From IMG/VR virus record IMGVR_UViG_3300032116_014896, positions 1-40,025 of that record: a stretch of DNA of 40,025 nt. One strand, given 5' to 3'. A program made the position numbers and the translations under genes. Shown piece by piece: positions 8,456 to 37,668 of the stretch (positions within the stretch are counted from its first letter, which is position 1; the number at the start of each line of letters is the position of its first letter). Below the pieces are notes generated by a model that was not told the DNA's origin, searched no databases, and saw only the letters and a program-made list of their open reading frames with translations. This stretch comes from a virus.

Positions 8456-11400
8456 ATGAAAAAATTAAAAAAGATTTATCATATAGCAGATGTTCACATC
8501 CGTAACGTAAAAAGACACAAAGAGTATAGACAGATATTTGAAAAAATGTTTGATGAAATCCGTAATAGAGGTGTGGAAGATTCAATCATTTATTTGGCAG
8601 GTGATATTGCTCATGCTAAATTAGAAATGTCTCCCGAATTAGTTAGAGAGATTAGTTGGTTATTTACGGAGTGTGCTAAATTGGCACCTACAATTCTTAT
8701 CACAGGTAACCACGATTGTAATATGAACAATTTGGATAGAATTGATGTTCTTACTCCGATTGTAGAAGCATTGAATTTAGATAACTTTTACTATTTAAGA
8801 GATACACAAGTTTGGAGTTATGGTGATACTGCATTTGCTGTTTATTCTATTTTTGATAATAAGGATAACTGGCCTAAAGCAGAAGATATTAATGCAAAAA
8901 CAAAAATTGCATTGTTCCACGGACCTGTTGATAATTCTATTACCGATGTAGGTTATGTGGTTAGTAGTAGACACTTCACAACCGATATATTTGATGGATA
9001 TGATTTAGCTCTATTGGGTGATATTCATAAGCGTCAAGAAATGACTAGCCCGAAGGGATGTAAGGTAGTTTATGCCGGCTCATTGGTTCAACAAAACTTT
9101 GGTGAAACATTGGATAAGCACGGTTTCATTGTTTGGGATATGGATACTCTAACATATGAAGCAATTGATATTCCAAATGAGTATGGTTATTATACTTTGG
9201 ATGTGGATAATGGTATTGTTCCTATTGTATCGGATATGCCGAAGTATGCACGATTGAGAGTTCGTTTATCTAACACCGATACCGCCGATACAAAGAAGGT
9301 ATTGACAGAAATTAAGATGAGATACGGACTTGAGGATTTTACAATCATTAGAACAGACTCGCTTTCCAAATTAAAGACCGGAAATAGACAAAACAAGTTG
9401 GATTTTGAAGATATAACAGATGTAAACCATCAAAACTCTTTAATACATGATTATATTAAAAGAATGATGCCATTTGTGACAGATGAAGATTTGTCTGAAT
9501 TAGAATTTATAAATAGAGATATAAATAGTAGAATTATATTAGATGATGTTGTAAGAAATATCCAATGGAAACCAATCCGTTTTGAATTCTCTAATATGTT
9601 TTCCTATGGTGAAGATAATAAAATTGAATTCAGTAAATTGAATGGTTTGATGGGATTATTCGCACCAAACGCATCGGGTAAATCATCTTTATTTGACTCC
9701 ATCTCTTTTTGTTTGTATGATAAGAGTAGTAGAGCATTCAAAGCAGCAAATATAATGAATAACCGTAAAACCGATTTCAAATGTAAATTGGAATTTGATA
9801 TTAATGGTGAAAGATACTTCATTGAAAGAACTGCTAAAACCGTAAACAAAGGAAAGAATGTAAAGGTGGATGTGGAGTTCTACCGAATGGATGGAGATGA
9901 AAGAACATCACTAAATGGAACGGAACGTAGAGATACCAACGCAATAATTGAACAATATGTAGGAACGTATGAAGATTTTGTTCTAACTGCATTGAGTTTG
10001 CAAGGTAACAATGCACTGTTCATTGATAAATCCCAATCAGAAAGAAAGGATTTGTTAGCACAGTTTATGGGATTGAATATCTTTGATAAATTATACGATG
10101 CTGCATTAGAAGATATTAGAGAGGTAAGTGTACTTATCAAAAATTTTAAGAAAACCGACTTTACGACAGAATTGGCGGAGAAGGGTAATAAAATAAAAGA
10201 AGAAAAAAATTCTCTAAAGGGGTTACAAGGACAATTAGATATTAAGCTACATACTAAATCGGAAGTTGAAAACGAAATATTAGATTTAACTAGACAACTT
10301 GCACCCGTTGATTCTAATTTGGATTTACCTAAATTAGAAAACAAAAGAAAAGATATTACAAAACAAATTTCCGATTTAGAATCCGAATACGAAACCAAAG
10401 AGAGCAAGATAGAAGAATATAAAAGTTTACTTTCAGAACTTTCACAATCCCTCAATGAAATGGGTGATATGGAAACGGCGTATAATGCGTATGTAGAAAA
10501 GGTAAATGAATATAAAACTGAAAAACAAAAATTACAATTGTTGGAAGTTAAATTAAATTCAAATAAGGATAAACTTTCGCATTTAGAAAAACATGAATAC
10601 GACCCTAATTGTAAATTTTGTATGAACAACGTATTCGTAAAGGATGCACTTAAAACAAAAGAAGAATTAGAACAACAACAAACCGAATACAATGAGTTAG
10701 ATTCAAATGTTAAACTTATTAAAGGGGTAGTTGATGATTTTGGTAATATAGAAGAAAACTACAAAGGGTATGTTGAAATAAAAAACAAATATTCGAAGGG
10801 TAAGGTTATATTGGAAAAATCAGAAGCAGAGTTGAAAGGATTGGATACAAAAGAAGAATTGTTACAAACTCAACTAGATAAGGTAGAGGATGATATTGAA
10901 AAATATTATGAAAATGAGGATACCATTGAGAGTAATAAAAATTTAGAAACGGAAATTAAAACAAAAGAATCCAATAAAACTGAAATTGAAAGGGATATAA
11001 AGGAAATAAATAAGAGTATAGCCAGTTCCAATACGTCTATTGCGCAATTACAATCGTTTATAGATAACATCAAAGGTAAGATGGGTGAAGTTAAGGAATT
11101 GGAAGAAAAGAACCGCCTATACACCTATTATTTGGATGCAGTGAAGCGTGATGGAGTTCCATATGAATTGATTTCTAAAGCACTGCCGGTTATCCAAACA
11201 GAGGTAAATAATATATTAGGACAGGTGGTTGATTTCGGAGTTGTAATGGAAGTGGATGGTAAGAATATCAACGCAAAAATTGTTTATGAGGACCAAGAAT
11301 GGGCATTGGAAATGTGTAGTGGTATGGAAAAGTTTATTAGTGGTTTAGCAATAAGAGTTGCATTAATAAACATATGTGGATTACCTCGTCCAAACTTTTT

Positions 11401-11587
11401 GGTGATTGATGAAGGGTTTGGAACATTGGATAGTGATAATCTTTCATCCCTATTTGGAATGATGCAATATCTTAAAACTCAATTCGATTTTATTTGGGTA
11501 ATTTCCCATCTAGATGCTATGAGGGATATCGTAGATGGATTGATTGAAATAAAAAAAGAAAATGGATTTAGTAAGATTGATTTTTAA
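8456..11587 (+). CDS. Single-chain Mre11-Rad50 (SbcD-SbcC / gp47-gp46) nuclease fusion
   Basis: A 1043-residue recombination nuclease and ATPase in one polypeptide. Residues 1 to about 340 are a calcineurin-like phosphodiesterase (Mre11/SbcD): D12 and H14 in IADVHIRN, then LAGDIAH, TGNHDC, FHGPVD and LLGDIHKRQ. From about residue 365 the Rad50/SbcC ATPase begins, with Walker A at 403-410 (APNASGKS), a long coiled coil broken by a zinc hook (C719-x2-C722), an ABC signature at 954-957 (CSGM rather than the usual LSGG), and Walker B at 982-986 (FLVIDE). In T4 these are two genes (47 and 46) that process DNA ends for recombination-dependent replication. No frameshift or internal stop separates them here. 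The zinc hook should still allow dimerisation of the coiled coils. It has a 9-base gap from the upstream gene and its 3' end overlaps the convergent minus-strand gene by 20 bases. Confidence 0.93.
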   Translation: MKKLKKIYHIADVHIRNVKRHKEYRQIFEKMFDEIRNRGVEDSIIYLAGDIAHAKLEMSPELVREISWLFTECAKLAPTILITGNHDCNMNNLDRIDVLTPIVEALNLDNFYYLRDTQVWSYGDTAFAVYSIFDNKDNWPKAEDINAKTKIALFHGPVDNSITDVGYVVSSRHFTTDIFDGYDLALLGDIHKRQEMTSPKGCKVVYAGSLVQQNFGETLDKHGFIVWDMDTLTYEAIDIPNEYGYYTLDVDNGIVPIVSDMPKYARLRVRLSNTDTADTKKVLTEIKMRYGLEDFTIIRTDSLSKLKTGNRQNKLDFEDITDVNHQNSLIHDYIKRMMPFVTDEDLSELEFINRDINSRIILDDVVRNIQWKPIRFEFSNMFSYGEDNKIEFSKLNGLMGLFAPNASGKSSLFDSISFCLYDKSSRAFKAANIMNNRKTDFKCKLEFDINGERYFIERTAKTVNKGKNVKVDVEFYRMDGDERTSLNGTERRDTNAIIEQYVGTYEDFVLTALSLQGNNALFIDKSQSERKDLLAQFMGLNIFDKLYDAALEDIREVSVLIKNFKKTDFTTELAEKGNKIKEEKNSLKGLQGQLDIKLHTKSEVENEILDLTRQLAPVDSNLDLPKLENKRKDITKQISDLESEYETKESKIEEYKSLLSELSQSLNEMGDMETAYNAYVEKVNEYKTEKQKLQLLEVKLNSNKDKLSHLEKHEYDPNCKFCMNNVFVKDALKTKEELEQQQTEYNELDSNVKLIKGVVDDFGNIEENYKGYVEIKNKYSKGKVILEKSEAELKGLDTKEELLQTQLDKVEDDIEKYYENEDTIESNKNLETEIKTKESNKTEIERDIKEINKSIASSNTSIAQLQSFIDNIKGKMGEVKELEEKNRLYTYYLDAVKRDGVPYELISKALPVIQTEVNNILGQVVDFGVVMEVDGKNINAKIVYEDQEWALEMCSGMEKFISGLAIRVALINICGLPRPNFLVIDEGFGTLDSDNLSSLFGMMQYLKTQFDFIWVISHLDAMRDIVDGLIEIKKENGFSKIDF

Positions 11588-18082: not shown

Positions 18083-19065
18083 TTGTATTCATTACAACAG
18101 GTTATGGAAAAAATGTTATTGGAGGCGCCGATATATGGTGTAACAATTTCATTGAAAATATAATTCCACTTTTAAAAACCGAATATAAAATAATAGTTGA
18201 TGCAAGACCTATAGAAAAAAATTCCAACATCACATATACATACGAAAATGATGAAGAGGTTAATAAGATTTTAGAAGATTGTGATGGGATTATTTTTTTA
18301 CACCACTCTTATAGAGAAAACAAAGTAATCAAAAAATGGTTATATAAAACCTATCTAACTTTTGTCCATGCATTTATACCCGATATGGTTGGGTTAAAAG
18401 ATGAATATGAAAACCTAATGACAAGATTAGATTGGGATTGGCAAAAGAGTATATTAGATAATTCTGAAAATATTATTTGGATTGGTTATGAAAATGATAC
18501 AATTCACACATATTATCCAAAAACAAAAAATATTACAAACTACTATGAGTGGAAAAACAATAAACCATTTAATGAAATAGTTAGTAATAGAATTGGATAT
18601 GCTGCAAGATGTGAAACAAGAAAAAATGCCGATTATTTGGATAGTTTACCAGCATATGTATTTTCAAACGAATACGATTACAAACGAATGATAGAGGCAT
18701 CAAAAATTAATTCAGATTTTCATATGTTTCAAAAATTTGATTATAAGTTTCATCAAAAATTCTTTGATAAAAATTTTCAAATATTTCATGGGGCATATAC
18801 TAAAGAACCATTTGGTTATTCCATATTTGATGCCGTTGATAACGGAAAATTACCAATACTGGATTCAAATTGGATGAAGCATATAAAATATCGTTATAGA
18901 GCCATGAATAAAAAGCAGTTTCATTATCAATGGTTACGAATATTGGAAGATGGGTTTGATAAAAATAAAAAACAATTTGATAGGTTAAAAGCCGGATTAG
19001 AAAAATATACAGATAAACAAAAATGGGTTACAGAAATATGCAGTTACTTAACGAAATACTTGTAA
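18079..19065 (+). CDS. Probable GT-B glycosyltransferase (GT4-like)
   Basis: A 328-residue protein. It begins MIVFITTGYGKNVIGGADIW, which suits the first strand and glycine loop of a GT-B fold (the GGA loop common in GT4 enzymes). Near the C-terminus, starting around residue 243, EPFGYSIFDAVDNGKLPILD matches the donor-binding EPFGL-x-x-x-EA-x-x-x-G-x-P-V pattern of GT4, with Asp where Glu is usual. It would move a sugar from a nucleotide donor to an acceptor in the cytoplasm. The length is a little below typical GT4 enzymes. It starts by ATGA overlap on the preceding virion gene and runs 28 to 43 bases into the methyltransferase gene. It is the first gene of the carbohydrate block. Donor and acceptor are unknown. 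Confidence 0.65.
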   Translation: MIVFITTGYGKNVIGGADIWCNNFIENIIPLLKTEYKIIVDARPIEKNSNITYTYENDEEVNKILEDCDGIIFLHHSYRENKVIKKWLYKTYLTFVHAFIPDMVGLKDEYENLMTRLDWDWQKSILDNSENIIWIGYENDTIHTYYPKTKNITNYYEWKNNKPFNEIVSNRIGYAARCETRKNADYLDSLPAYVFSNEYDYKRMIEASKINSDFHMFQKFDYKFHQKFFDKNFQIFHGAYTKEPFGYSIFDAVDNGKLPILDSNWMKHIKYRYRAMNKKQFHYQWLRILEDGFDKNKKQFDRLKAGLEKYTDKQKWVTEICSYLTKYL

Positions 19066-19802
19066 AAGAATATCTAACAAATAACCATACCATAGATGAA
19101 ACGGGCAAACCAATATATACGCCTGTAAAATATAGATGGTCGCATGGTGCAACGGATACGCATTTGGGGGATGGATTATTGGTATATTCTCTCATACAAT
19201 TAAACAGAGCAAAAGTATGTGTGTGTATAGGTACGGGTGGTGGATTCATACCAAGAATAATGACACAGGCCAGATTTGATTTGTGGCAGCAAGGTATATT
19301 TGAAGGAAATCCATCAAAAGAATGGGGTGATATTGGAACTACCATAATCATAGATGCATCAAATGGTATTGGTGGGTTTACCGATTGGACTGAAGAAAAT
19401 TCATTTTTGAGAATACAATTCCAACCGCAAGTTATTTTAGAAACATCTGAAAGAGCATTCTACGATTACTTTATACGACAGGATATTAAAATTGATTATT
19501 TGCACATAGATGGTGATCATTCATATGAAGGAGTAAAAAAAGATTTTGAATTGTATTCACAAATACTCTCTGATAATGGAATAATTACCATACATGATAC
19601 CCATCAAAAGTATCACGACTCATTTTTAGTACCAGATACACAAAAGAATGGATTCGATTCATTTGATGGGCCGGCGAAATTTATAAAAGAATTAGAAAAT
19701 AATACTGATTGGAATTTGGTAAATTTAAAAAATTTTGTTATGTTTGATTCAAAAAGACCAACAACAACAGGAATAACAATACTAACAAGAAAAGATAAAT
19801 AA
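19038..19802 (+). CDS. Class I SAM-dependent methyltransferase (Methyltransf_24-like)
   Basis: A protein of about 254 residues from the ATG at 19038; an ATG 15 bases upstream (19023) is an equally open start. The Rossmann-type SAM site is seen at about residue 63 (VCIGTGGGFIPRIM), an acidic strand end at IIIDASNG, and around residue 155 YLHIDGDHSYEGVKKDFELY followed by IITIHDTHQK. The HIDGDHSYEGV signature is typical of methyltransferases found in polysaccharide and macrocin-type clusters. It would O-methylate a sugar or glycan intermediate. The overlap with the upstream glycosyltransferase and the 6-base gap to the next transferase place it in the same operon. No targeting signal is present, so it acts in the cytoplasm. 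Confidence 0.75.
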   Translation: MQLLNEILVKEYLTNNHTIDETGKPIYTPVKYRWSHGATDTHLGDGLLVYSLIQLNRAKVCVCIGTGGGFIPRIMTQARFDLWQQGIFEGNPSKEWGDIGTTIIIDASNGIGGFTDWTEENSFLRIQFQPQVILETSERAFYDYFIRQDIKIDYLHIDGDHSYEGVKKDFELYSQILSDNGIITIHDTHQKYHDSFLVPDTQKNGFDSFDGPAKFIKELENNTDWNLVNLKNFVMFDSKRPTTTGITILTRKDK

Positions 19803-19808
19803 AAAGTA

Positions 19809-20660
19809 ATGATAAAAAAAAGATTACTAACAGTAACAGGATCGAGAATAGATACGTTATCCCATATGCTAAATCACTATAATGATTTGGTTGATGAAAT
19901 TTTTATTGTTGTATATGAGTGGGAAAATTTTAGTACATATGATAAAATATCAGAAATAATTTTAGATTATCCAAAAGCAAAAATTATAAAAAAAGCAAAA
20001 AAAGAAAAATATAATTGGGAATATGTAACGGAGTTATATAATGAAATTAAAAATATGTTTCCTAATGATTGGTGGATTATTGCTGATGATGATGAATTTC
20101 ATATATACTCAAAGGATTTAAATAAAATAATATCAGATTGTGAATACAATGGTTGGGATATTGTAAGAGGTGGTTTTATAGATAGAATTGGTATAGATGG
20201 TATGTTTCCAGTAATAAATCAGGAACATGATATATTTCACCAATTCCCACTTGCAGGTTTTTTTAGATACCCAATGAGTGGAGCATGTCCAAATAAAATT
20301 TGTATAGTAAAGGGGTATATTGAATTAACTCCTGGGCAACACTATGCAAAAATTGATGGACAAACTACATGGCGTTGGCAAGGGTGGAATCATCCATTAA
20401 TTGCTCCCGTTGATAAATACAATGTACAAGTACATCACTTTAAATGGGATAGTACATGTGGACAACGAATAAGAGATGTTGCTAATATAAACAAAGAATA
20501 TTCGTATTCAGAAGAATACAGAAAAATGTATAGAGAATTAGCAAAATGTAGATTTCAAATAGATATACTAAATGAGCAGTATATGTTTGAAGATATTGGT
20601 GATGATTATGGTGGATATTCTCAATGGAAAAATTTATTAAACAAAATAATATCGATATAA
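19809..20660 (+). CDS. GT-A-type glycosyltransferase (GT2/GT92-like)
   Basis: A 283-residue protein starting MIKKRLLTVTGSRIDTLSHM, a typical N-terminal strand and helix of a GT-A fold. The DxD-type metal and donor site is at residues 93-95 (WWIIADDDEF). A later HHFKWDST motif, with C and R/D residues nearby, is often seen in this group after the acceptor site. A W/G-rich segment (TTWRWQGWNHPL) lies between them. It should be a cytoplasmic sugar transferase in the same pathway as its neighbours; the sugar is unknown. It begins 6 bases after the methyltransferase and is followed by a 57-base gap carrying a host-type promoter, so it is probably the end of the transcription unit that begins with the fibre genes. 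Confidence 0.7.
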   Translation: MIKKRLLTVTGSRIDTLSHMLNHYNDLVDEIFIVVYEWENFSTYDKISEIILDYPKAKIIKKAKKEKYNWEYVTELYNEIKNMFPNDWWIIADDDEFHIYSKDLNKIISDCEYNGWDIVRGGFIDRIGIDGMFPVINQEHDIFHQFPLAGFFRYPMSGACPNKICIVKGYIELTPGQHYAKIDGQTTWRWQGWNHPLIAPVDKYNVQVHHFKWDSTCGQRIRDVANINKEYSYSEEYRKMYRELAKCRFQIDILNEQYMFEDIGDDYGGYSQWKNLLNKIISI

Positions 20661-20717: not shown

Positions 20718-20927
20718 ATGGCAGTTACTAAAAAAAATGAAGAAAGAGAACAAGAAATATTACTTCTTGAAACTCGAAAAGTAAAAGCATTGGAAAAAAT
20801 CGCCAATTCTTTGGATGCACTAACAATTTGGTTTGAAGAAATAGAAAAAGATGAGTGGAGTGAAAGACTTCAATGGTATCTTTATGAGTGGCATTCCAAA
20901 AAAATTGCGGGAGACAAGGATAAGTAA
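20718..20927 (+). CDS. Small charged helical protein of unknown function (69 aa)
   Basis: A 69-residue protein, strongly charged and almost entirely helical by composition: a Lys/Glu-rich N-terminal helix (KKNEEREQEILLLETRKVKA) and a Trp-rich second half (IWFEEIEKDEWSERLQWYLY). I recognise no family. It is the first gene after the host-type promoter at 20662-20692, and its stop overlaps the following ATG by one base (TAATG), so it is coupled to the GT7-like glycosyltransferase. Possible roles are a small regulator, an inhibitor of a host protein or an accessory subunit; nothing in the sequence decides this. Confidence 0.6.
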   Translation: MAVTKKNEEREQEILLLETRKVKALEKIANSLDALTIWFEEIEKDEWSERLQWYLYEWHSKKIAGDKDK

Positions 20928-22357
20928 TGCAAAAACAAAAATTAGGAATAATTGTACCCTATCGTAATAGGGGTGAACATTTATCCCAATTTTTGCCCGC
21001 AATCAAAAAGTACTTATCATCTACGGATATAAAATACGAACTAATAATAGTAGAACAATCCGATGATAGACCATTTAATAGAGGTAAACTATTAAATATT
21101 GGTGTAAAACGAGCAATAGAACTGGGATGTAAATATGTTGCGCTTCACGATGTAGATATGCTACCGATTGATGCGGACTATTCCTATGTCAATAGACCTA
21201 CTCACATTGCTTATAAATTTATATCCGAAAATATAGAAAAAAATATAGTTTTTGATGAGTATTTTGGTGGGGTTACATTGTTCCCCATAAATGATTATTT
21301 AAAAATAAATGGTTACTCAAATGAATATTGGGGATGGGGTTATGAAGATGATGATTTACTTTATAGGTGTAAAGAAAATTCAATTGAATTAAATACAAAA
21401 TATTTCCCCGCAAAAACAAGAAACACTGCCGGTCTTTACTTTGATGGTAAAGATAGTTATATAAAATGTCCAATGCCTTTTGGGTTGGATAACTACACAA
21501 TATACGCATCATTTGAACCAGATGAAATTAAATGTGATGATAAATATGATTTTGATGAGTACGTTATATTTTCAATACCTGGGTATGATACTACCATAAC
21601 ATATAATTCATTTAAAAGGTATAAATTTGAAACATGGAGTAAAGGTAAAAAACTATTCAGTTTAAAATCACCCATATCACCAAAATTAAGAACAGCAATT
21701 GCAGTGACTGTAAATCAATATGAAAAAATTATAAAACTATACCAAGATGGTATATTGGTAGATTCAATTGAATTGGATGAAAAAGATAGATTGATGCCTT
21801 ACTTCAATCAAGAATTTTTTTATATAGGAAAAACAACCACATCAGAATATAATAGTCGTAGACCATTTAAAGGAATTGTAGATTATTTTGCCATATTTAA
21901 CCATGCTTTAGAAGAAGCACAAATAAAACAAATATCAAATGATAAATATATGGGGTTGACATCCGAATATGGTGATTATATTACTCCACATTGTTTAGAA
22001 GTTTGTTATGATATGAAAATAGTTAAAAAAGATAAACTAATAGATTTATCCGATAAACAAAATAATGCAATTGTAAATAATTGTAATAGAGTCCCAATGG
22101 TCGATGTTGATTTAATAACGGAAATAAAAATACCATGGAGGAGAGAATGTACATTTAAACTGTTACCACATAAAGAAAATGGTTTTTTTGAAAACAAATG
22201 GACTTTTACGGAAACACGAAAAAATCAAATAAAATTTTATAATGAAGTATTGGGTGGAAAAACAAATTGGAGAAGAGATGGAATGGATACTTTAAATTAC
22301 AAAGAAATAAGTTATACAGATATGAAAGATTACCAATATATATCCGTTGAATTATGA
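20927..22357 (+). CDS. GT7 (beta-1,4-galactosyltransferase-like) enzyme with inserted LamG domain
   Basis: A 476-residue protein. Residues 1-150 carry the full GT7 motif series in the right order: VPYRNR (10-15), FNRGKLLN (50-57), HDVDMLP (74-80, with the metal-binding DVD), YFGGV (112-116) and WGWGYEDDD (135-143). These match animal and bacterial beta-1,4-galactosyltransferases. The expected C-terminal element, RDGMDTLNYKE (450-460), like the DGLNSLTYQ region of animal enzymes, appears only at the very end. Between them (about 165-345) is a LamG/concanavalin-like domain (NTAGLYFDGKDSYIKCPMPF ... GIVDYFAIFNHALEEAQ). The lectin-type domain is thus inserted into the catalytic fold. It is predicted to transfer galactose or a related hexose. 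It overlaps its paralogue by 4 bases (ATGA). Confidence 0.85.
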   Translation: MQKQKLGIIVPYRNRGEHLSQFLPAIKKYLSSTDIKYELIIVEQSDDRPFNRGKLLNIGVKRAIELGCKYVALHDVDMLPIDADYSYVNRPTHIAYKFISENIEKNIVFDEYFGGVTLFPINDYLKINGYSNEYWGWGYEDDDLLYRCKENSIELNTKYFPAKTRNTAGLYFDGKDSYIKCPMPFGLDNYTIYASFEPDEIKCDDKYDFDEYVIFSIPGYDTTITYNSFKRYKFETWSKGKKLFSLKSPISPKLRTAIAVTVNQYEKIIKLYQDGILVDSIELDEKDRLMPYFNQEFFYIGKTTTSEYNSRRPFKGIVDYFAIFNHALEEAQIKQISNDKYMGLTSEYGDYITPHCLEVCYDMKIVKKDKLIDLSDKQNNAIVNNCNRVPMVDVDLITEIKIPWRRECTFKLLPHKENGFFENKWTFTETRKNQIKFYNEVLGGKTNWRRDGMDTLNYKEISYTDMKDYQYISVEL

Positions 22358-23817
22358 AATTAGGAGTTTGCGTACCATATAGAAACAGAGAAGCACATCT
22401 GAAAAGATTCGTACCAAGCGTTACAGAATTTTTAAACAATGCGGGTATTGAACATACCATATACCTTGCTCATCAATGTGATGATGAATTGTTCAATCGG
22501 GGTTTAATGAAAAACATTGCAGCAAAGTATGCATTTGAAGATGGGTGCGATTATATTGTGTGGCATGATATTGATATGATTCCTGAAGATAATACGTGTG
22601 ATTATTCCTTCCCAACGGAAAAACCAACACATATTGCAGTTAATATATCACAATCCGATTATATGTTAAAGTATGAAGAATATTTTGGTGGTGCCGTTTT
22701 ATTTTCAAAAGAACAAGTTGAAAAAACAAATGGTTACTCAAACGATTATTGGGATTGGGGTATGGAAGATGATGACCTTTTTTGGAGATGCGTTAAGGAG
22801 GATATGGTTGATAGAACCAAACTTGAATATAATGTAAATAAAATGGTGGGGGTTTTTGATGGTAAAACATCTTATATGGAAATACCAAATACATTTGGAC
22901 ATATTTTAAATAATTCACATACAGTTTCTATTTTAGTAAAAGCAGACCAGCAAATTGAAAAAGTTCCTATTTGGTTAATTGGTGATTCCGATAGAAGATT
23001 CGTTGAATATCCTATTTTGAGAAAACCCGGATATGATTGGGGTATATCTTTTAATAATAGTAGAGCTTATACAGCAATGCTGTGGAGTAACAATAAAGAG
23101 AGTATATACCAATGGTTTAAACGTTACGAAAATGAATGGACGTGGGTAACAATGGTTGTAGATACTATGGATAAAAAAATGCATTGGTATCTAAATGGTA
23201 GAGAAAGTTCTGCAAGAAACGGAACAGGGACGGATTCTCCTGTTAGATATTTTGGAAGCCTAAAAAGATATGGGTCAGAACCATTTTATATAGGACACAC
23301 TACGAGTATAAATCAAAATGAACCGAATGCATTTTTTAAAGGACAAATAGCAGATATTAAAATATGGGATAGAGCATTGACCGATAAGGAAGTGCAGAAT
23401 TTACACAAATCACATCCAACGGATAGTTTGATTGCTCATTATGATTTTGAAAACATAGATAGATTAAATAGAAAGTTAATAGATAATCTTAACGGAAATA
23501 ATGCTAGTTTAAGTAGGGTTTCATTTAAAACCGAAGAAATAACTATACCATATGTTGCATTACCACATAGAAGAAACGGACGGTTCTATTGTTTACCACA
23601 TAAAACTGAAGGATTGATAAATGAAGGCGGAATGGAAAAATGGGCAAAGGGTGAAACAACGGCTGCAAATGAACGTAGGTATGTATTAGAAATGCAACAA
23701 GGAAAAATAGATTATAAAAAAGATGGGATGTCAAATTTAGATGAAAAGTTTAAATTGATTGGAATTGATATAATATATGATAAGCATGTGATGATAAATG
23801 TTAAATGTGTAAAATAA
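22354..23817 (+). CDS. Second GT7-like glycosyltransferase with inserted LamG domain
   Basis: A 487-residue paralogue of the preceding gene with the same architecture. GT7 motifs: VPYRNR (7-12), FNRGLMKN (47-54), HDIDMIP (71-77), YFGGA (110-114) and WDWGMEDDD (133-141). The second glycine of the WGWG motif is Asp here. The LamG domain spans about residues 163-395, beginning VGVFDGKTSYMEIPN and ending with the classic FKGQIADIKIWDRAL strand plus a SLIAHYDFEN segment, so it is longer and better conserved than in the first copy. The C-terminal catalytic part has LPHRRNGRFYCLPHKTEG and then YKKDGMSNL. The two enzymes probably arose by tandem duplication and may add successive sugars or act on different acceptors. 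A 4-base gap leads to the radical SAM gene. Confidence 0.83.
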   Translation: MKLGVCVPYRNREAHLKRFVPSVTEFLNNAGIEHTIYLAHQCDDELFNRGLMKNIAAKYAFEDGCDYIVWHDIDMIPEDNTCDYSFPTEKPTHIAVNISQSDYMLKYEEYFGGAVLFSKEQVEKTNGYSNDYWDWGMEDDDLFWRCVKEDMVDRTKLEYNVNKMVGVFDGKTSYMEIPNTFGHILNNSHTVSILVKADQQIEKVPIWLIGDSDRRFVEYPILRKPGYDWGISFNNSRAYTAMLWSNNKESIYQWFKRYENEWTWVTMVVDTMDKKMHWYLNGRESSARNGTGTDSPVRYFGSLKRYGSEPFYIGHTTSINQNEPNAFFKGQIADIKIWDRALTDKEVQNLHKSHPTDSLIAHYDFENIDRLNRKLIDNLNGNNASLSRVSFKTEEITIPYVALPHRRNGRFYCLPHKTEGLINEGGMEKWAKGETTAANERRYVLEMQQGKIDYKKDGMSNLDEKFKLIGIDIIYDKHVMINVKCVK

Positions 23818-23821
23818 AAAT

Positions 23822-25240
23822 ATGGCAGAAGATAAAATCATAAAGGGAGAAAACCCATTATATGTACAGGTAAAAAATGAATTAGATTCGATTGGAAAGG
23901 GAATGTGCTTAGCGAAATGGACACAGGTAACTATGCAATTACAAAGTGGCCACAACCACTCCTGTCACCACCCAACAACCCACAAAATTTCAGAAAAAGA
24001 AATAGCAAGAAATCCATCTGCTCTTCATAATACTCGATTTAAAAAATTGAAAAGAAAAGAAATGTTAAGTGGGCAAAGACCTACCGAATGTGAGTATTGT
24101 TGGAATGTAGAAGATAATTCAGACCGTTTTTCGGATAGAGTATTTAAATCATCGGAGAGTTGGAGTTGGGAAAACAAAGAAGAAATATTTAATTCGGATT
24201 GGAGAGATGATTATAATCCAAAGTACGTTGAAGTTGCATTTTCTAATACTTGTAATTTTAAATGTTCATATTGTGGTCCATCATTCAGTACAACTTGGAT
24301 GGAAGAAATAGAACAATATGGCGGTTATCCAACATTGGATAATTTTAATGATATAAACTGGATGATTAGAGAAGATAAAATGCCAATCCCACAACGAGAA
24401 CATAATCCGTATGTAGAAGCATTTTGGAAATGGTGGCCTGAATTATACCACAATCTACACACATTCAGAATTACAGGAGGAGAACCTCTTTTATCAAAAG
24501 ATACTTGGAGGGTTTTGGATTATATTATTAGTGAAAAGAATCCAAACAAAAATCTTAAATTGGCAATAAATTCAAATCTTGGGGTGCCGGATGCATTAAT
24601 TGATAAATTGATTGAAAAGATTAAAAAGATAGAAGATGAAGGTAGAGTAAAGGAATTGATTTTGTTTACCTCAGCCGATACCTGGGGAGAACAGGCGGAG
24701 TATATTAGAACAGGATTGGAGTTTAATCGTTTTTGGGATAATATAAATAAGATATTATTGAACTGCCCTAAAATAGTTATAACCTTTATGGTTACATACA
24801 ACGCATTATCTGTTTTCAAATATGATAAACTTATAAAAGAAATATACAAATTAAAAGAAACATATGCAAGTCCGTATAGATATTGGAACTCTGCAACGTT
24901 TTTGGATTCATCGTATTTGAGATATCCAATGCATCAAACGGTTCAAGTATTACCACATCAATTTGCCGAAAACATAATGAATCAGGCCAAACTTGCAACA
25001 TTCTTTTCAACACCATCATTCAATTCCACACAAATTGGATATAGTGATGTAGAAGTTCAAAAGATTAAAAGAATATATGATTGGATGTTAGCACCACAGG
25101 ACGCAGAACAGCAAATGAAAAATAGATATAATTTCTATAAATATTTTAGTGAGCATGATAGGCGTAGGGGAACTGATTTTTGTAAAACGTTTCCTGAATT
25201 AGAAGAATTTTATAATTTTTGTTCAACAATTACAATATGA
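23822..25240 (+). CDS. Radical SAM protein with twitch-type C-terminal region
   Basis: A 472-residue protein. The iron-sulfur site is C144-x3-C148-x2-C151 (CNFKCSYC), the radical SAM hallmark, followed by ITGGEPLL (the GGE motif that binds SAM) and NSNLGVPDALIDKL. Ahead of it is a Cys/His-rich part (NHSCHHPTTHK; then ECEYCWNVED), which could hold an auxiliary cluster, as in twitch/SPASM-related enzymes. I recall proteins with this N-terminal arrangement (ALHNTRFKKLKRKEMLSGQ before ECEYCW) in large marine phages and their hosts; their substrates are not known to me. In this block, a role in sugar or glycan chemistry is plausible. It ends in an ATGA overlap with the LamG gene. Confidence 0.85.
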   Translation: MAEDKIIKGENPLYVQVKNELDSIGKGMCLAKWTQVTMQLQSGHNHSCHHPTTHKISEKEIARNPSALHNTRFKKLKRKEMLSGQRPTECEYCWNVEDNSDRFSDRVFKSSESWSWENKEEIFNSDWRDDYNPKYVEVAFSNTCNFKCSYCGPSFSTTWMEEIEQYGGYPTLDNFNDINWMIREDKMPIPQREHNPYVEAFWKWWPELYHNLHTFRITGGEPLLSKDTWRVLDYIISEKNPNKNLKLAINSNLGVPDALIDKLIEKIKKIEDEGRVKELILFTSADTWGEQAEYIRTGLEFNRFWDNINKILLNCPKIVITFMVTYNALSVFKYDKLIKEIYKLKETYASPYRYWNSATFLDSSYLRYPMHQTVQVLPHQFAENIMNQAKLATFFSTPSFNSTQIGYSDVEVQKIKRIYDWMLAPQDAEQQMKNRYNFYKYFSEHDRRRGTDFCKTFPELEEFYNFCSTITI

Positions 25241-25986
25241 GTTTAAATATAAATCAAGAAAACCTATATTTGGTATTACCATCAAATGTATCATTTAAAG
25301 AATCTAATATAGGAGATTCTATGGAAAATGATTTTACTTTATTTGCGAGAGTAAAAATAGATAAAGAAAAGTTAACAGAAAAAGAGGCATTCATACTTTC
25401 AAGAAGTGGAATGCATTCCGGAATATCTGTATTCAAAAATGAAATAGGTAAAGTTTTTTTACAATACACATATTGGTTTAAAAATGATGAAGATGGTACG
25501 AATTATATAAAGCAGGTTAATACGGAACTTTCGGATACGTTGTTGGAAAACTATATAAATGTTTATATGGTTAATAATGATGAAAAATCAAAAATATCTT
25601 GCTACTTAAATGGAGATATCGTTGGTAGTATTGTGTATCCTGGTTTTAAAAAAATATCTTATGTAGATTCACCATATTGGATAGGGTGTGGTAGTATGTT
25701 TACGGAAGGTGATTCAAAGGGTATTGGTGATTTTGAATATGATGTAGTTTTTTCCGTAAAGAAGAGATTATCAAATATAGATGTTGATGATATATTGAAA
25801 AACTATTATTCAACGTATAGTGAAACGGTATTTGAAACTTATAAAGTATTTAGCAAAAGTTGGGAATTATCAAAGTATTTTGCATTCTTTTGTGACTTTA
25901 AAATATCAAATAGATATAAGATTTGGAACTATGCTTTTAATGGAAACTACCCACAAATTTATATAGAAGGAAACGTATACTATTAA
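25237..25986 (+). CDS. Free-standing LamG/concanavalin-like domain protein
   Basis: A protein of about 249 residues if started at the ATG at 25237, which overlaps the radical SAM stop (ATGA). A TTG 18 bases upstream is open but less likely. The order of beta-strands (FTLFARVKIDKEKL ... ISCYLNGDIVGSIVYPG ... PYWIGCGSMFTEG ... FEYDVVFSVKKRLSNIDVD) is that of the LamG domains inserted in the two GT7 enzymes upstream, including the closing strand followed by a helix. The C-terminal 60 residues (YSTYSETVFETYKVFSKSWE onward) are Tyr/Phe-rich and unlike those proteins. No catalytic residues, signal peptide or membrane segment are visible. It may bind the same glycan in trans. It lies 2 bases before the first of four tandem paralogues. 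Confidence 0.55.
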   Translation: MSLNINQENLYLVLPSNVSFKESNIGDSMENDFTLFARVKIDKEKLTEKEAFILSRSGMHSGISVFKNEIGKVFLQYTYWFKNDEDGTNYIKQVNTELSDTLLENYINVYMVNNDEKSKISCYLNGDIVGSIVYPGFKKISYVDSPYWIGCGSMFTEGDSKGIGDFEYDVVFSVKKRLSNIDVDDILKNYYSTYSETVFETYKVFSKSWELSKYFAFFCDFKISNRYKIWNYAFNGNYPQIYIEGNVYY

Positions 25987-35757: not shown

Positions 35758-37668
35758 ATGAAAACAGTTACAAAGCCTTGGGGAAAGGAGGAGTGGTTAG
35801 AACTCAATGATAGTTATTGTTATAAACGCATATACATAAATGCGGGATACAAAACATCCTACCAATATCATAATTTTAAAAGAGAAACAAACTATATAAT
35901 TTCAGGTGAAGCAGAAGTTTGGCTTGAAAATGATGAAGGTGTTGTTGAGAAGAAAATTATGAAAGCGGGTGATTATTTTAATGTAACACCACCAAAAAAG
36001 CATAGAGTAATCGCACTTACTGATATAATCCTTCAGGAAGTCTCTACACCTGAAGTAGATGATGTAATCCGAATCAACGATGAGTTTGCCAGAGCGGATG
36101 GTAAAATAGAAGGAGAGCACCAAACTCCTGCTGTATTGATATTAGCAGCGGGATTGGGTACTCGTTTGGAATCTCTTACAAAAGAAATAAATAAAGCACT
36201 TTTACCAATTAATAATCGTGCAATCATATCTCATATTATTGATAAATTTCCAAAAGAATATGAATTTGTAGTTGCAATTGGATATAAGGGAGAGTTGGTT
36301 AAGGAATATTGTAAATTAGTATTTCCCAATCATAAATTCACATTTGTAGAAATTGATAATATAGATGGTGAAGGTTCCGGCCCTGGCTATTCTGCCTTAA
36401 AATGTAAAGAATATTTACAAAGACCTTTTTATATTACAACTTGTGATTGTATAATTGATTCACCAATACCACATTTGGATGGTAATTGGTTGGGAGTACA
36501 ACCGACATCTTATCCTGAAAAGTATTCCACAATATTAGTAGATGGAGAAAACATTGTAAAATATTCCAATAAAAGTGTAGAAGGATATGATTTAGCTTTT
36601 ATTGGATTGGCTGGAATTTGGGATTATAAAATATTTTGGGAAAAATTAGAAAAATCAATAAATAATGGAGAATTGGTATCGGCATTTGAATCACCATTAG
36701 AATATCCAACATTTAAAATTAAAAAATTAAAATGGCTTGATACGGGTAATTTGGATGATTTAAATAAATCAAAACAATATTTTAATGATAAACCACTATC
36801 TCTACAAAAAGATAATAACGAAATAACTTATAGAGAAGGTAATTTATTTATAAAGTTTACGCCTGAAAAATCTATATTACAAAATAGAATAGAACGTGCA
36901 AAAATTTTGAATGATTTTATACCACCCAATTTTAATAGTGTATCTAATTTTATTTATTATAATTGGAAAGACGGTAATACACTATATGAAATGGATGATT
37001 TGAATTTATTCAGAAAATTCTTAAATAATTTTGAAAAAAATTTAGTAGAAATTTGTAATAATTCAAATAAGCATACCTATGAATTTTATAAGCTAAAAAC
37101 ATTAAAAAGATTTTCCAAATTTATAAAAAAGAATGGTGAAAAGTATTATCTACATTCATACAATATAAATGGTAAACAATACCCAGAATTAGAATCATTT
37201 TTTTCATTTATAAACTATGATAGTTTTAATTCAAATCCATTTTATAAATTATTTCATGGTGATTTACAATTTGATAATATTATTTATAATTCAAATGAAA
37301 ATAAATTTACATATATCGATTGGAGAGAATCATTTGGGGGGTATACGCCAGCCGGAGATGTTTATTATGATTTAGCTAAATTATATGGGGGGTGTATAAT
37401 ACCATATGATAAAATGAAAGATGAAAATAACATAAATTATATAGAAGGAGAATACACTATTAAATATTCTTATGAGGTCTCTAATAATTTAAGTTTATTT
37501 AAATCTGAATTTGAAAATTGGGTTATCCAAATGGGATTTGATTTGAATAGAGTAAAATTCATAACGGGTTTAATATTCTTAAATATGTCACCATTACATG
37601 ATGAGAAATTTTCAAAAATGCTTTGGTTTAAATCAATAGAAATGTTATACGAATATGCAAATAAATAA
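35758..37668 (+). CDS. Cupin + sugar nucleotidyltransferase + kinase triple-domain protein
   Basis: A 636-residue protein with three recognisable parts. Residues 1-115: a cupin of the mannose-6-phosphate isomerase type II kind (KPWGKEEWLELN, YQYHNFKRETNYIISGEAEV, KHRVIAL). Residues about 123-345: an NTP-transferase domain (LILAAGLGTRLESLTKEINK, with the GxGTR loop; then ITTCDCIIDSP in the position of the metal-binding Asp, and LDTGNLDDL). Residues about 350-636: an aminoglycoside-phosphotransferase/choline-kinase-like fold with H500-G-D502 in HGDLQFDN and a D521 metal motif in YIDWRES, followed by GDVYYDLAKL. The order suggests synthesis of an activated sugar: isomerise or epimerise, phosphorylate, and couple to a nucleotide. 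Exact sugar unknown. It overlaps the next gene by 14 bases. Confidence 0.85.
   Translation: MKTVTKPWGKEEWLELNDSYCYKRIYINAGYKTSYQYHNFKRETNYIISGEAEVWLENDEGVVEKKIMKAGDYFNVTPPKKHRVIALTDIILQEVSTPEVDDVIRINDEFARADGKIEGEHQTPAVLILAAGLGTRLESLTKEINKALLPINNRAIISHIIDKFPKEYEFVVAIGYKGELVKEYCKLVFPNHKFTFVEIDNIDGEGSGPGYSALKCKEYLQRPFYITTCDCIIDSPIPHLDGNWLGVQPTSYPEKYSTILVDGENIVKYSNKSVEGYDLAFIGLAGIWDYKIFWEKLEKSINNGELVSAFESPLEYPTFKIKKLKWLDTGNLDDLNKSKQYFNDKPLSLQKDNNEITYREGNLFIKFTPEKSILQNRIERAKILNDFIPPNFNSVSNFIYYNWKDGNTLYEMDDLNLFRKFLNNFEKNLVEICNNSNKHTYEFYKLKTLKRFSKFIKKNGEKYYLHSYNINGKQYPELESFFSFINYDSFNSNPFYKLFHGDLQFDNIIYNSNENKFTYIDWRESFGGYTPAGDVYYDLAKLYGGCIIPYDKMKDENNINYIEGEYTIKYSYEVSNNLSLFKSEFENWVIQMGFDLNRVKFITGLIFLNMSPLHDEKFSKMLWFKSIEMLYEYANK

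Follow-up and report, generated by a model that had tools for sequence, protein, structure and literature searches.

A LamG-like domain inserted within the GT7 catalytic domain of two tandemly encoded phage glycosyltransferases

An uncultured aquatic phage has two adjacent genes for glycosyltransferases of family GT7 whose catalytic domain is split by a LamG-like domain, and this GT7::LamG architecture is a real, conserved and apparently undescribed form of a known family. The genes lie on a 40,025-base virus contig from IMG/VR, which as a whole is the window; all features given below with coordinates of the window are on its plus strand. The first protein, p1 (GT7::LamG-A, 476 aa), is encoded at 20927-22357, and the second, p2 (GT7::LamG-B, 487 aa), at 22354-23817, so that the p2 start codon overlaps the p1 stop codon. 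Both were characterised by ORF, Pfam and Foldseek analysis, together with AlphaFold2 models and PDB searches. An earlier note on this DNA had given the same gene limits and had listed the motifs VPYRNR, FNRGKLLN, HDVDMLP, YFGGV, WGWGYEDDD and RDGMDTLNYKE, all of which are present in the ORFs.

The N-terminal GT7 part of p1 comprises residues 1-161 (20927-21409) and contains the DxD motif (D75/D77), the donor-site Y112, W137 and E140/D141, as assigned by Pfam, by conservation and by a PDB match to B4GALT1 (E 3e-26). It is followed by a LamG/pentraxin-like domain at about residues 168-390 (21428-22096; Pfam and Foldseek) and by the C-terminal GT7 part at residues 400-476 (22124-22354), which carries R405-R406, the metal-ligand H415, N433 and D451-G452 (HHalign, alignment and conservation). 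The corresponding parts of p2 are residues 1-158 (22354-22827; D72/D74, Y110, W135, E138/D139; Pfam, PDB search and conservation), about 164-390 (22843-23523; Pfam, Foldseek and comparison of the two LamG domains) and 398-487 (23545-23814; H416, N439, D457-G458; conservation, alignment and HHalign).

With Pfam, Glyco_transf_7N was matched at E values of 5e-20 in p1 and 7e-17 in p2 (71.9 and 62.8 bits, cut-off 27) and Glyco_transf_7C at 2e-17 and 3e-19 (61.8 and 68.7 bits, cut-off 23). The latter match stops in both proteins at profile position 60-63 of 78 and gives way to Laminin_G_3 (PF13385) at residues 173-334 of p1 and 169-348 of p2 (7e-11 and 9e-16; 43 and 58.8 bits, cut-off 27.6). A sequence search of the PDB likewise aligned B4GALT1/B4GALT7 to about residues 1-156 of p1 and as far as residue 165 of p2. 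The insert starts past residue 161 or so in p1, and the GT part is back by about residue 400, ahead of R405-R406 and H415. The insert of p2 is bounded by residues 158 and 398, approximately, and the inserted domain is about 220 residues long. Since p1 and p2 align colinearly, with 33% identity over 484 columns that span the insert boundaries, the split architecture is not a matter of chance.

Relatives were gathered from viral contigs using p1 and p2 separately, and a second, insert-blind collection was made with a DNA pattern for WGWGxxEDDD, which returned 38 complete LamG-free GT7 ORFs of 195-300 aa besides many with LamG. The alignment of the insert-less enzymes (A3) matched B4GALT1 over its entire catalytic domain (E 1.5e-60); on 6fwu, GRFKSLKH was aligned to GRCRMIRH and the C-terminal DGL--L to DGLNSL. 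In HHalign comparisons, profiles of the segments that follow LamG in families A and B, typified by p1 and p2, matched the C-terminus of A3 (P 97.5%, E 6e-12 and P 97.0%, E 1e-10, respectively), in a region that includes the metal-ligand His and the DG-L motif. The LamG profiles gave no match to A3 (P < 0.2%). When the insert was excised and the single joined sequences were searched against the PDB, the match still ended at about residue 156, so the profile of the insert-less relatives was needed to reveal the C-terminal match.

The order N-LamG-C was found in 377/377 complete LamG-bearing GT7 ORFs, in which 182-335 residues separate the two GT parts; the same distance is -8 to 21 in the 16 insert-less ORFs with a C-terminal match. 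Taken together, the Pfam order, these ORFs and the alignment of A3 with B4GALT1 confirm what had been proposed from the letters of the two genes, namely that a LamG domain sits inside the GT7 catalytic domain, and the profile matches show that GT7 resumes behind it. PF02709 and the LamG profile, which the earlier note had suggested as a check, both exceed their cut-offs in p1 and p2, PF02709 as the partial match described above. The C-terminal element expected after the insert was found as regards the DG-L motif and has to be extended, as the metal-ligand His (H415 in p1, H416 in p2) also lies downstream; the second half therefore holds a catalytic ligand and not the DG-L motif alone. The insert is present in both tandem genes, as had been claimed, and the survey of other phage GT7s that had been called for found it in hundreds of genes of uncultured phages. 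On sequence grounds, the split, its position, the completeness of both halves and their conservation are established.

One possibility is that the insert is a passenger that is tolerated and has no function of its own. The LamG domain is indeed less conserved than the catalytic part, the mean fraction of the commonest residue being 0.45 vs 0.65 in family A and 0.57 vs 0.77 in family B. However, several LamG positions are nearly invariant among the relatives, and the insert is kept in every one of the complete relatives, across two paralogue families. We regard a mere passenger as very improbable.

The catalytic residues are well kept. Among 64 proteins of family A, D75 is found in 64/64, D77 in 63/64, Y112 in 63/64, W137 in 62/64, D141 in 63/64, H415 in 62/64 and G452 in 64/64; most of the 60 members of family B keep the equivalent positions, and a minority of copies are divergent. 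Both proteins have a DxD and a GWGxED-type motif, the latter reading WDWGMEDDD in p2. As to family membership, GT7N and GT7C score over their cut-offs and the C-terminal metal-ligand His and the terminal DG-L element are in place, while the continuous catalytic domain usual in GT7 is interrupted by LamG. Because continuity is the usual form and not a defining requirement, and because both halves are kept, the proteins were filed as a GT7 variant. The best PDB and Foldseek matches, B4GALT1 and B4GALT7 (PF13733 + PF02709), share the DxD, YFGG and WGWGxEDD motifs, the metal-ligand His and DGLNSL. In these animal enzymes the domain is continuous and is preceded by an N-terminal membrane anchor and stem, whereas p1 and p2 have no anchor and open directly with the first catalytic-domain strand. 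The insert-less GT7s of phages (202-300 aa) and bacteria belong to the same family and align over both halves, but lack LamG. A Tyr that matches Tyr289 of B4GALT1 suggests a preference for UDP-Gal. Judged by sequence, p1 and p2 are metal-dependent inverting GT7 enzymes, most likely galactosyltransferases.

Structure prediction of both proteins, also proposed earlier, gave confident AlphaFold2 models (pLDDT 91.1 for p1 and 92.2 for p2, pTM 0.86 for each) with a B4GALT-like and a pentraxin-like part. In Foldseek searches the GT part matched B4GALT1/B4GALT7, nearly all of the top hits falling within 1.1-2.8 A across some 150 columns; the LamG part matched pentraxins, PAPP-A, a Bacteroides putative carbohydrate-binding protein (4dqa) and sialidase CBM40. 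Beyond LamG, residues 404-412 of the p1 model make up a strand and 428-441 a helix, followed by two last strands; judged by homology and predicted secondary structure, this fits a GT domain that is completed there. In the p2 model the GT strand continues into the first LamG strand without a break (153-169) and residues 390-403 lead back, which suggests that the two parts are joined by a two-stranded connection. Among the best 50 BFVD matches all named ones were LamG-like or GT7-like, and the query TM-score never exceeded 0.39, so that a full-length viral counterpart was not found there. The insert resembles pentraxin and LamG-like jellyroll domains (PF13385) in fold and strand order; such domains are usually appended or free-standing, whereas here the domain is internal, its lectin fold being indicated by sequence and model. 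A circularly permuted LamG was considered because other LamG proteins often carry the last element (YDM..DLS..NN) ahead of the domain. It was rejected in view of an element order that appears to be that of pentraxins, by comparison with CRP, and of sequential Foldseek matches that cover most of the pentraxins (target TM about 0.6-0.74).

The two genes belong to a conserved block within a glycan gene cluster, which comes after the tail-fibre genes. Its order is a GT2-like gene, a small ORF, GT7::LamG-A, GT7::LamG-B, a twitch-type radical SAM gene and, usually, a free LamG protein. In the window these are a GT2-like glycosyltransferase (19809-20660; PF13704, weak), preceded by a methyltransferase (19023-19802; PF13578, 1.5e-10); a 69-aa ORF (20718-20927) with the strongly conserved core KALEKIANSLDALTxWFEEIxKDEW, whose stop overlaps the p1 start; the tandem pair; a radical SAM enzyme of the NF033640 twitch type (23822-25240; 354 bits, cut-off 170); and, 3' of it, a free LamG-like protein of 255 aa (25219-25986; Laminin_G_3 E 0.0014, under the Pfam cut-off). 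Loci from separate searches overlap, and the following pair and neighbour counts include repeats of the same contigs: A-B tandem pairs on the same strand numbered 159, with a gap of 0-19 bases in 135; a radical SAM homologue lay downstream in all 97 pairs with at least 4 kb of downstream sequence, and an ORF matching the LamG profile or the free LamG protein of the window followed in 81 of these 97; a GT2-like homologue was found upstream in 162 fetched loci and a methyltransferase homologue in 135. A similar small ORF, a recurrent neighbour upstream of GT7::LamG-A genes, precedes 131 of 173 of them and none of 67 insert-less GT7 genes.

The proposed mechanism is as follows. The LamG beta-sandwich takes the place of a hairpin turn that would link the strand after the xED helix to the one bearing the metal-ligand His. 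The two GT halves are predicted to fold into one B4GALT-like domain, with LamG held near on two strands and probably placed beside the flexible loop, at the entrance to the active site. When B4GALT1 binds its donor, a long flexible loop that carries the metal site closes, and the acceptor site is thereby created (PMC4202792); the insert thus adjoins that loop. An adjoining position had been anticipated in the earlier note, and the alignment does place the insert a few residues before the metal-ligand His. There LamG may recognise the acceptor or its carrier and restrict the enzyme to that acceptor, a reading to which we give about an even chance. The acceptor in this phage would be a virion or host-surface structure produced by the glycan gene cluster.

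LamG might instead act from within, modifying loop closure and specificity as alpha-lactalbumin does on B4GALT1, with no separate target bound. Such a role would fit the proximity of the insert to the metal-ligand His and to the segment equivalent to the B4GALT1 flexible loop, and the strands that run from the GT part into LamG in the models, but it leaves the free LamG protein and the fusions of LamG with radical SAM enzymes unexplained; we consider it unlikely.

A more serious competitor is that LamG is a docking or oligomerisation module by which both GT7s, the radical SAM enzyme and the free LamG protein, perhaps via the small ORF, are held in one complex, the acceptor being chosen elsewhere. 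Its conservation, lower than that of the catalytic part, speaks against acceptor recognition, and so does the fact that LamG domains in many cases bind proteins or lack a known ligand. The nearest fold relatives of this LamG include the multimeric pentraxins. The same LamG family occurs in both GT7s, in the free protein and at the N-terminus of some radical SAM enzymes (L216:1170-3275:-, L117:2175-4292:- and L153:6562-8613:+). Furthermore, a 914-aa frame (L059:4175-6916:+) fuses GT7::LamG-B to the radical SAM enzyme, apparently a natural fusion, though loss of a stop by assembly error is possible. Because the same LamG is found free and on the radical SAM enzyme of the block, docking is nearly as likely as acceptor recognition. 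However, LamG is detected by HMM in few of the block's radical SAM enzymes (3/181 complete ORFs, one of them the GT7::LamG fusion), and a lone bacterial GT7::LamG (L226:5941-7428:+) occurs in a genome where no NF033640-type radical SAM gene exceeds the cut-off, so that GT7::LamG can occur without its block partner. We infer that acceptor recognition ranks first for the LamG function and docking, which has roughly one chance in three, second.

If acceptor recognition is preferred, the LamG shared with the free protein and, in some relatives, with the neighbouring radical SAM enzyme suggests that the block acts on one common acceptor. Somewhat more tentatively still, the pair of galactosyltransferases may form a machine with the radical SAM enzyme and the free protein, whose members share a lectin-fold address domain, internal in the transferases, and work together on that acceptor.

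A partial parallel is offered by the GT27 polypeptide GalNAc-transferases, GT-A enzymes of the same clade as GT7 (PMC7185993), whose lectin module binds the glycosylated acceptor (PMC4202792). In contrast, these enzymes are retaining and their ricin-type lectin is appended at the C-terminus; p1 and p2 have no such C-terminal lectin, and their module is internal and LamG-type. Acceptor specificity in GT-A enzymes is described as arising from three hypervariable regions, the beta3-alphaC loop, the beta6-beta7 segment and the tail after beta8 (PMC7185993). As the insert apparently precedes the strand with the metal-ligand His, its position, judged by sequence, seems to lie outside all three. A whole lectin-fold domain between the xED helix and that strand, kept in hundreds of phage genes, may represent a natural design for acceptor-gated galactosyltransferases.

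It also marks a conserved glycan-modification block absent from the phage records searched: p1, p2, an insert-less phage GT7, the small ORF, the radical SAM enzyme and the GT2-like protein had no match among 50,697 phage records, and the small ORF none in PHROGs. The host recognition cluster of pelagimyophages and cyanomyophages (PMC7029224) likewise has tail-fibre genes beside glycosyltransferases and radical SAM cassettes, but the text on it mentions no galactosyltransferase. No published description of a GT7 with an internal LamG was found in the open-licence literature.

The insert survey covered viral contigs and bacterial and archaeal species genomes. In the species genomes the insert was found on a few MAG contigs, and most bacterial GT7s recovered had none. 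A distribution limited to phages is not supported, since the lone copy occurs in two genomes of one bacterial family. The copy in L226 lies next to a GT2, an ABC exporter and a weak HlyD match, on a contig whose bacterial genes include this exporter and an SNF2 helicase, and the second genome (L266) has a lone 78% relative. It had further been claimed that the insert predates the duplication of p1 and p2. The two LamG domains are homologous along their length (E 4.6e-42), the proteins are colinear across the boundaries, and the AU test does not reject one common origin for the insert (p = 0.08); however, the best trees place family B beside insert-less enzymes and require two changes, so the claim is supported in part.

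Two other ORFs of the window have composite structures. A single 1043-aa ORF at 8456-11587 contains SbcD-like (4-335) and SbcC-like (313-1042) parts and is nearest to Microcystis phage Mel-JY01 (42.7%), and a 636-aa ORF at 35758-37668 combines cupin/mannose-6-phosphate isomerase, nucleotidyltransferase and kinase-like parts.
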